Of a DNA stretch of 64,000 nt, positions 12,597 to 58,300 are shown piece after piece (position 1 is the first letter of the stretch; each line of letters starts with the position of its first letter). Below the pieces are notes generated by a model that saw only the letters and a program-made list of their open reading frames with translations, made no database searches and had not been told where the DNA came from. The stretch comes from Clostridia bacterium (GTDB taxonomy: Bacteria > Bacillota > Clostridia > Oscillospirales > QAMX01). The DNA is taken from assembly GCA_017532825.1 (NCBI GenBank), contig JAFXIT010000025.1, positions 1-64,000 on the forward strand, in the 5' to 3' direction. The position numbers and the translations under genes are program-made.

Positions 12597-12602
12597 GGCG
12601 GA

Positions 12603-12628
12603 CGGTCCGAATCCACTTCAGACAAAAA
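12603..12628. repeat. 26-bp direct repeat, remnant of the tRNA-linked element
   Basis: These 26 bases (beginning CGGTCCGAATCCACTTCAG) are repeated exactly at 12866-12891, the tail of the tRNA-Tyr-linked element. This copy lacks the two-hairpin core and is followed by a different palindromic sequence, so it looks like a decayed or recombined partial copy. Confidence 0.8.
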
Positions 12629-12651
12629 CTTCAGTGATATTCCGCCGTTGG

Positions 12652-12752
12652 CGGATTCCACTTCTTCACTATTCACTCTTACTTATTACTTTCCAAAAAT
12701 CCAGGTATATAAGAGAAAAGTGAAGAGTGAAGAGGTAATAGTGAAAAAGTAA
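12652..12752. repeat. MITE-like imperfect inverted repeat
   Basis: TTCTTCACTATTCACTCTT at 12662-12680 is opposed by AAGTGAAGAGTGAAGAGG with AATAGTGAAAAAGT at ~12717-12750, giving an imperfect inverted repeat of ~20-30 bp around an AT-rich centre. It has no coding capacity. It lies between the partial and full copies of the tRNA-linked element and resembles non-autonomous palindromic repeats (inference). Confidence 0.5.
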
Positions 12753-12782
12753 AAATCCCCGTTCTTTCGAACGAGGATTTTT
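12750..12782 (-). terminator. hairpin terminator at the far end of the tRNA-Tyr element
   Basis: AAAAATCC-CCGTTC / GAACG-GGATTTTT stem with a TTTC loop. Read on the minus strand it follows the duplicated tRNA-Tyr 3' end directly, as a tRNA terminator would. Confidence 0.75.
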
Positions 12783-12882
12783 GGTGGGAGAGGGTGGATT
12801 CGTCCGTCTTCGGACGGCCCGCCTCGCGGCTCTGACAGTCCGCAGGACTGTCATTCACTCCCGCTCGGTCCGAATCCACTTC
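12777..12882 (-). repeat. tRNA-Tyr-linked structured element with copied tRNA 3' end
   Basis: A 26-base segment (12777-12802) repeats exactly the tRNA-Tyr 3' terminus plus flanking T-run (12921-12946). It is followed by the hairpin TCCGTC-TTC-GGACGG, a CGCGGCTCTGACAG hairpin (GACAGTCC / GGACTGTC), CATTCACTCCC, and GGTCCGAATCCAC. That last stretch is the reverse complement of the tRNA-Tyr T-arm (12938-12950). The same order of parts occurs next to tRNA-Leu at 23769-23870. No ORF is present. Confidence 0.8.
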
Positions 12883-12886
12883 AGAC

Positions 12887-12922
12887 AAAAAAATAACGGC
12901 CACCCTAATGGGTAGCCGTTAT
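12887..12922 (-). terminator. terminator of the tRNA-Thr/tRNA-Tyr unit
   Basis: AATAACGGC-CACCC / GGGT-GCCGTTATT stem immediately after the tRNA-Tyr CCA end on the minus strand, followed by a T run. Confidence 0.85.
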
Positions 12923-12925
12923 TTT

Positions 12926-13010
12926 TGGTGGGAGAGGGTGGATTCGGACCACCGAAGTCAGTGACAACAGATTTACAGTCTGCCCCCTTTGGCCGCTCGG
13001 GAACTCTCCC
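12926..13010 (-). tRNA. tRNA-Tyr (GTA)
   Basis: A class II tRNA of 85 nt with encoded CCA. The acceptor stem is GGGAGAG / CTCTCCC, the anticodon loop is CTGTAAA with GTA, there is a long variable arm, and the T-arm is GGTGG-TCCGAAT-CCACC. It lies 26 bases downstream of tRNA-Thr in the same transcript. Confidence 0.97.
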
Positions 13011-23768: not shown

Positions 23769-23870
23769 AACGGGGAGATGGGCCGGATTTGCCGCCTTTG
23801 CGAAGGCGGCCTCGGCGGGCTCTGACAGCCATTCAGGCTGTCATTCACTCCCCGTCGTTCAAATCCGTTT
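23769..23870 (-). repeat. tRNA-Leu-linked structured element
   Basis: A second member of the family at 12777-12882. Order on the plus strand: CGGGGAG (23771-23777), CGGATTTG (23784-23791), hairpin GCCGCCTT-TGCG-AAGGCGGC, CGGGCTCTGACAG hairpin (TGACAGCC-ATTCA-GGCTGTCA), CATTCACTCCCCG, CAAATCCG (23860-23867). The CGGATTTG/CAAATCCG arms match the T-arm of the adjacent tRNA-Leu (GGCCGGATTTGAAC on this strand). The shared core GCTCTGACAG...CTGTCATTCACTCC is nearly identical to the Tyr copy. There is no ORF. Confidence 0.8.
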
Positions 23871-23882
23871 ACAATACCAAAA

Positions 23883-23912
23883 AGAAAAAACCGCCCTTGG
23901 GGCGGTTTCTCT
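23883..23912 (-). terminator. terminator of tRNA-Leu
   Basis: ACCGCCC-TTGG-GGCGGT hairpin with T run, directly after the tRNA 3' end on the minus strand. Confidence 0.85.
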
Positions 23913-23915
23913 TTT

Positions 23916-24000
23916 TGGTGCCGCTGGCCGGATTTGAACCGGCACGAATCACTTCGCCGCATTTTGAGTGCGGTGCGTCTGCCAGTTTCGCCACAGCGGC
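23916..24000 (-). tRNA. tRNA-Leu (CAA)
   Basis: A class II tRNA of 85 nt with encoded CCA: acceptor GCCGCTG / CAGCGGC, anticodon loop CTCAAAA (CAA), long variable arm, T-arm GCCGG-TTCAAAT-CCGGC. It has its own consensus promoter at 24014-24042. Confidence 0.97.
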
Positions 24001-58034: not shown

Positions 58035-58044
58035 ATCAAAAAAG

Positions 58045-58300
58045 AGAAACCATTGAGTAAGAGAAGTACCCCAAGACGAGGCCTTAAAGAGAGCGGCGGA
58101 CGGTGAGATCGCCGCAGGCGGAGGTTGGGCGAATGGGCTTACGAGGGCGGCAGGAAAGCGAAAGCAAGTAATGGCCGACGGGCGCTCCCGTTACAGAGCA
58201 GAGCGCATGTAAGTGCGTGAAGTGGGCTTTCAAGCCAATTTAGGTGGCACCGCAGAGACAGAGTCTTTGTCCTAATTCAGGATGAAGGCTTTTTGTATTT
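58045..58300 (+). promoter_or_regulatory. T-box riboswitch (Trp) upstream of trpB
   Basis: Stem I has AAAGAGAGCGGCGG...GGTGAGA and GGGCGAATGGGCTTACGAG, with TGG (58134-58136) as the likely Trp specifier. The T-box core is AATTTAGGTGGCACCGC (58238-58254). The terminator AGTCTTTGTCCT / AGGATGAAGGCT (58262-58290) is followed by TTTTTG. Uncharged tRNA-Trp should switch on trpB. Confidence 0.85.

Follow-up and report, generated by a model that had tools for sequence, protein, structure and literature searches.

The window analysed here, a 64,000-nt stretch of a contig from a Clostridia bacterium, carries two small elements on the minus strand, one behind tRNA-Leu(caa) and the other behind tRNA-Tyr(gta) (Table 1). 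At the Leu locus, the tRNA (...GGTTCAAATCCGGCCAGCGGCACCA) is followed, in minus-strand order, by a strong terminator, a reverse complement of tRNA nt 54–63 (antiT), a core, and a second copy of the tRNA 3′ end (T′). The core reads GACGGGGAGTGAATGACAGCCTGAATGGCTGTCAGAGCCC and stands, together with a second hairpin (GCCGCCTTCGCAAAGGCGGC), ahead of T′ CAAATCCGGCC. The earlier note had described this as a second tRNA-linked element that has its core in common with the Tyr element and arms matching tRNA-Leu, and both descriptions proved accurate: the core was located at both tRNAs, and the arms named there (CGGATTTG/CAAATCCG) both reproduce the resident tRNA-Leu, the left arm in inverted orientation (antiT, matching at all ten positions) and the right arm in direct orientation (T′, running from nt 56). 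The sequence CTGTCATTCACTCC occurred in only two places in the window, the Leu and Tyr elements, and 2 of 100 shuffled sequences reached two matches. The Tyr element follows the same plan as the Leu element, but its T′ is complete through the CCA and is followed by another terminator. A second, core-less Tyr antiT comes after a repeat-rich stretch, ACTTTTTCACTATT...CTTCACTCTTCAC (window 12600–12780, minus strand), and this repeat is also found behind native tRNA terminators in other genomes (L262, L270) and behind tRNA-Val(cac) of the same genome (L142).

Table 1 Features of the two tRNA-linked units, and a T-box leader, in the 64,000-nt window
Feature	Position	Strand	Basis or remark
tRNA-Leu(caa), intact; CCA at 23918–23916	23916..24000	−	ARAGORN; Rfam RF00005
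Putative insertion unit: copy of tRNA nt 57–76, terminator, antiT and core	23792..23935	−	Probable boundaries, by analogy with empty and occupied tRNA-Gly(ccc)
Unit-borne terminator: hairpin and T-run, ACCAAAAAGA...TCTTTTTGGT	23868..23915	−	Sequence
antiT CGGATTTGAA, exact reverse complement of tRNA-Leu nt 54–63, 10/10 at +48	23858..23867	−	
Type-I core P2: GAGTGAATGACAG-CCTGAATGG-CTGTCAGAG	23820..23850	−	Pattern search; covariation of flanking stem
P4 hairpin of three-way junction, loop CGCA	23791..23810	−	Sequence, folds
T′ CAAATCCGGCC, direct copy of tRNA nt 56–66, decayed beyond	23781..23791	−	P1 pairing with antiT
tRNA-Tyr(gta)	12926..13010	−	ARAGORN
Terminator of Tyr unit	12879..12925	−	
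antiT TGGATTCGGA of Tyr unit, 10/10	12869..12878	−	
Type-I core of Tyr unit	12830..12860	−	Pattern search
T′ of Tyr unit, tRNA-Tyr nt 57–76 including CCA, 20/20	12782..12801	−	
Terminator after Tyr T′	12751..12782	−	Probably native tRNA-Tyr terminator, from Gly(ccc) and Gln(ttg) comparisons
Second antiT of tRNA-Tyr without core, at +310	12606..12615	−	Remnant of another unit
T-box leader	58044..58277	+	RF00230, 109.6 bits

Searching 84,980 species genomes for this core (type I) returned at least 116 stretches, mostly from ruminant and other gut Clostridia among the matches listed, and no copy in viral contigs. Thirty-two listed copies lay close behind an intact tRNA; these loci were picked by the core, not by the arms, and span 10 amino-acid types (Arg, Ala, Tyr, Gln, Ser, Asn, Trp, Leu, Gly and Met). 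Comparison of the right arm with the tRNA of its own locus gave a mean score of 19.1, against a permutation mean of 8.7 and a maximum of 11.4 in 10,000 permutations, and the left arm scored 11.9 (permutation mean 8.5, maximum 9.8). Many loci outside these 32 were found via antiT itself. In a set in which many loci were chosen by pattern, 96 of 168 tRNAs had an antiT matching at ≥9/10 positions, compared with 1 and 3 for the reversed and complemented controls. Chance as the source of the arm match was ruled out by the permutations and the control patterns. The claim that the arms track the local tRNA was borne out, as they vary with the adjacent tRNA and are not invariant, and the layout is present at 28 tRNA types. 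The profile of 87 loci, selected partly via antiT, revealed antiT complementarity of 0.98–1.00 at nt 54–62, falling to 0.22 by nt 69, and T′ identity of 0.94–1.00 over nt 63–76 and of 0.58 at the first nucleotide past the CCA. T′ usually starts at nt 55–57, without TTC, and is ~20 nt long.

In the genome to which the window belongs, the exact core occurs four times, and antiT (≥8/10) is found in about 10 of ~37 tRNAs, 42–53 nt past the CCA; these are Tyr, Leu(caa), Leu(taa), Leu(gag), two tRNAs with anticodon CAT, Gly(gcc), Gly(ccc), Cys and Trp. A T′ with 19–20 matching nucleotides accompanies antiT in seven of them. The constancy of the core asserted in the earlier note held within a subtype and lineage, but not across them: a second core type of the same genome, GGAAGGTCCAA..., obeys the same arms rule. 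The core GGAAGGTCCAAGAAAAATACCTGAATGGTATTTTTCCCTTCC is found at Leu(taa), and its relatives at Leu(gag) and Gly(ccc). tRNA-Leu(taa) is followed by four successive units with differing cores, each ending in the Leu 3′ end with CCA. This array (L155, G000:C5:9300–11500) contains three core types, and a stray type-I unit without a tRNA lies ~1.4 kb downstream of it, with a helix-turn-helix-like ORF in between.

Folding of the 32 core-picked loci yielded mostly a three-way junction composed of P1 (antiT paired with T′), P2 and P4. P2 contains a conserved internal loop (GAGUGAA/GAG), and the loop of P4 is often CGCA. The pairs GC, CG, AT and TA occurred at the same positions of the P2 stem, that is, as compensatory changes, and the paired fraction of the stem was 0.870, compared with 0.681 (maximum 0.712) for shuffled partners and 0.38–0.46 for slid partners. 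Among 59 distinct stems, G·T and T·G were counted 22 and 2 times and A·C and C·A twice each, counts of a kind that kinship of the copies inflates; the level of G·T far above that of A·C indicates that the tRNA-sense strand folds, either as RNA or as single-stranded DNA. None of the Rfam 15 covariance models matched the unit at the gathering score or in a permissive search; the curated level returned only tRNAs and one T-box, and the weaker permissive hits were unrelated.

Both occupied and empty sites, the polymorphism that the earlier note called for, were found in relatives at two tRNA genes. Two tRNA-Gly(ccc) loci, L115 and L073, have 3.58 kb in common at 92.8% identity, up to and including the tRNA, where L115 contains exactly 149 bp extra, a unit inserted into an otherwise continuous tRNA locus. 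A terminator (AAAAAAGAAGTAACTTTTG... / AAAAAAGAAGTAACTTTTGTCTACC...) lies behind T′ in L115 and directly behind the tRNA in L073; thus the distal terminator is the native one, and both the functional tRNA 3′ end and a new terminator came with the unit. The same unit is also present in L073 ~830 bp downstream of its tRNA, for which a simple gain or loss does not account, and no orthologue of the L115 locus was found in 394 genomes of the order. A chloramphenicol acetyltransferase gene (PF00302, 2e-62; L115 4084–4752) is located ~0.5 kb downstream of this Gly(ccc) unit. At the orthologous tRNA-Gln(ttg) of one genus, antiT was present in 12 of 29 species and absent from 17, two of which (L245, L248) look like decayed units because the first terminator of a sister is kept. 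Here too, the terminators behind the last T′ of occupied sites resembled those right after the CCA of empty sites (L258 and L270 vs. L262; L249 vs. L268). At tRNA-Leu, all relatives from the family of the window were without a unit, with flanks too distant for true empty sites.

The units also vary in number and order. At tRNA-Asn, the order is X-Y in one locus (L044) and Y-X in another (L048), and L053 contains an array of at least three units. Genomes G243 and G331 contain two units and one, respectively (L240, L241), and their unit region is 95.7% identical, as compared with 85% for the flanking gene. In G331, a DUF4368 recombinase-like C-terminus ends beside the unit terminator (L241, 700–1100), a terminator that was apparently invaded by another mobile element.

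The units read closely contained no ORF. An integron integrase (TIGR02249) was over the cut-off in 0 of 30 genomes, that of the window included; tyrosine recombinases are numerous in them. No unit with its own recombinase was seen, and no enzyme able to make the insertions was found. An autonomous version, in which a distant copy of T′ would enclose a gene-bearing insert, was absent from the loci examined, where larger gaps were remnants or, in one case, a PH-domain ORF fused to half a core. This ORF (144 aa; bacterial PH domain, PF06713, 4e-16), at L162, 762 nt past tRNA-Ser(cga), runs into the 3′ half of the core and is followed by T′ and CCA; the unit seems to carry a gene fragment.

Outside the genome of the window, a core-independent pattern (the T-loop and, 48–78 nt on, its reverse complement) matched 119 of 295 genomes of the order, compared with ~10 for the backwards pattern, and 40 loci from other families shared the plan of the units, each lineage having its own cores. 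Across the wider phylum, the pattern matched 32 of 299 genomes, in many cases by chance or through neighbouring tRNAs. One distant genome of the phylum (G529) contains true units at Met, Arg, Glu and Trp (antiT 9–10/10, T′ 18–20/20), with T′ at a nearly fixed distance of ~150 nt and a core of its own that differs from the others; it also has truncated units at Leu and Gly and a terminator-less unit between tRNA-Glu and tRNA-Asp, apparently within an operon. Most of the genomes and loci analysed are metagenome assemblies, in which tandem repeats can be misassembled. The type-I core is also embedded in hairpin repeats that are dispersed and lack a tRNA, and whose closing arms vary in a paired way; an intergenic repeat of this kind, AAGGGAGTCTGAGGGTTCGG...CCGAACTGGGGC, with the closing arms changing in pairs, was seen in L009, L013, L021 and similar loci.

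We consider it likely, with a probability of roughly two in three, that these elements are small non-coding units (~110–200 bp) inserted in the 3′ part of tRNA genes, the arms being copies of the target and the core the travelling part. The earlier note had left two origins of the arm match side by side, target-site capture on insertion and selection for pairing with the local tRNA. We favour capture, since the distal terminator is native and the direct repeat continues past the CCA, into sequence dispensable for the tRNA. At 57 loci (single or last unit), the two copies agreed at 0.52 over the 10 nt past the CCA, compared with 0.32 (s.d. 0.02) after shuffling, and the mean exact run past the CCA was 4.3 as compared with 0.6 (maximum 1.9); as this sequence is not required by the tRNA, a duplication of local DNA is the best interpretation of the repeat. 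Pairing selection keeps support from the exact antiT. That antiT is exact despite loss of the adjacent anti-acceptor part in most loci, and that the unit of G243 and G331 is conserved above its flank, suggest that selection probably acts in addition to capture; both observations count against capture as the whole account, the latter pointing to function or recent exchange. The lack of an identified enzyme and of units with their own recombinase, the possible misassembly of tandem repeats in metagenome assemblies and the downstream unit of L073 also weigh against our reading. In addition, most single units have a first terminator with no relation to the native one, so that at least this part was not simply copied and the unit also carries foreign sequence.

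If this reading is correct, the arms would be made at insertion by copying of the target, and the intermediate would be a folded single strand of tRNA sense, either DNA or RNA. The folded core may enter the T-loop region of the tRNA gene, with a break at nt 54–57, and insertion would duplicate the tRNA from ~nt 57 to past the CCA. A 10-nt inverted copy of nt 54–63 would be left beside the core, so that the arms carry target sequence. The tRNA would stay intact because the unit starts with a copy of nt 57–76 and a terminator, whereas the old tRNA 3′ end, which becomes T′, would be displaced downstream together with the native terminator. antiT and T′ could then form helix P1 of the three-way junction, and further units might enter the same place and give rise to tandem arrays.

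Several other explanations were weighed against this one. The units might be integron-like cassettes, with antiT, core and T54–63 folding as an attC-like site that a trans-acting tyrosine recombinase joins to the T-loop of the tRNA and with arrays that are stacked and reordered; we regard this as possible but rather doubtful. antiT matches nt 54–63 of the T sequence with which its own unit begins (280 of 290 positions) better than those of the next copy, T′ (227 of 290), just as an inverse core site matches the core site that belongs to it, and the arrays, the order change, the excision-like empty sites, the structure kept while sequence varies, with strand asymmetry, and the many tyrosine recombinases are consistent with such cassettes. 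However, no integron integrase was over the cut-off in any of the 30 genomes, the T-loop GTTCRAN does not fit the GTTRRRY box, and the site folds as a three-way junction instead of a single stem. Furthermore, a cassette leaving one tRNA would bring the wrong 3′ end to another, and the exchange of arms would be left unexplained. It is unlikely that the units are instead a functional read-through RNA, in which antiT would compete between the native T-arm and T′ to control maturation or level of the tRNA, selection for pairing keeping the arms matched. Such a role would suit the tRNA-sense folded strand, an antiT that remains exact amid decay, the preservation of T′ at nt 63–76, the conservation of the G243/G331 unit above its flank and the terminator-less unit between tRNA-Glu and tRNA-Asp of G529, but the uneven occupancy of one tRNA across the species of a genus (12 of 29), the decayed copies and the mixed-core arrays fit mobility better. 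The type-I core in tRNA-less dispersed repeats is likewise better explained by mobility than by a housekeeping regulator, and strong terminators stand ahead of most units.

Fold-back template switching at the terminator and T-arm hairpins during replication would produce inverted and direct copies without any dedicated element. This accounts for the two kinds of local copy together, and the duplicated stretch does include the native terminator in a few loci (L054, L083), but it supplies neither the common structured core nor the unrelated first terminator, and recurrence of the same core at different tRNAs and in other repeats makes it improbable. We gave very little credence to an RNA-guided element, with the core as a guide-RNA scaffold, T′ as a 20-nt guide against tRNA nt 57–76 and TTC (nt 54–56) as the adjacent motif. 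The usual start of T′ at nt 55–57, the TTC missing before it and its length of ~20 nt agree with this idea, which was nevertheless rejected: the kept boundary is the CCA end and not the length, as a T′ without nt 57–62 (G291) still ends at the CCA; the repeat continues past the CCA; and the empty site reveals T′ to be the displaced tRNA end. The G291 T′ and the empty-site comparison largely refute it.

tRNA genes are classic landing sites of bacterial mobile DNA, and the known guests bring an integrase gene and a fixed attachment site. Like the integrative elements lodged in tRNA genes (phages, genomic islands and satellites, with the tRNA 3′ end as attB), our candidate insertion units have a direct repeat to the CCA, a restored tRNA, tandem accretion, a break in the T-loop and empty sites; unlike them, they are only 110–200 bp long, contain no ORF in those read closely, have neither an integrase nor known att arms, include nt 54–63 as an inverted copy, and show the same core at many tRNAs with the arms changed to fit. 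Integron cassettes and attC sites, with a folded, sequence-variable site, an inverted crossover partner, arrays and changed order, are the nearest working analogy, but membership fails: the units have no integron integrase over the cut-off, no attI platform and no GTTRRRY/RYYYAAC boxes, form a three-way junction, and usually contain no gene. MITEs, REP/REPIN sequences and intergenic hairpin repeats are likewise small, non-coding, multi-copy and hairpin-forming, and the type-I core occurs in dispersed repeats, but the arms of the units are copies of the local tRNA rather than fixed terminal inverted repeats, and their position in tRNA genes is strict. The conserved internal loop, compensatory changes and tRNA-sense strand recall the structured RNA families of Rfam 15, none of which matched. 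IS200/605-type single-strand elements have a Y1 transposase and subterminal hairpins with guide sequences; they came into consideration because antiT is placed 5′ of a hairpin and straddles the break.

No known kind of element fits the unit, which does not amount to proof of a mechanism. Tentatively, the units may constitute a new class of non-coding mobile element, in which a structured core rewrites both arms, one direct and one inverted, from the target at each insertion, so that one core fits dozens of tRNA genes without damage to them, and which would be distributed across Oscillospirales-like Clostridia and reach into at least one distant relative. The open-access literature contained no matching description of such an element, subscription journals being outside the search, and we know of no enzyme family that explains target-capturing mobility of this sort. 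A non-coding unit of ~150 bp is found at 28 kinds of tRNA and in hundreds of places, always with the arms of the host tRNA. Should copying at insertion be the source of the arms, this would represent a target-capturing mechanism of mobility; if the match is kept by selection instead, many gut bacteria would carry an unknown layer of tRNA control. Either reading accounts for a large class of intergenic sequences that adjoin tRNA genes.

Two cases pointed to break points elsewhere in the tRNA. In unit Y of tRNA-Asn (L044, L048), the break is nearer the anticodon or variable region, and the anti-arm seems to match that region and not the T-loop. In L067 (1860–1980), a type-I core with its own short flanks forms a 78-bp unit that is present twice in tandem and sits inside a duplicated 5′ part of tRNA-Leu.
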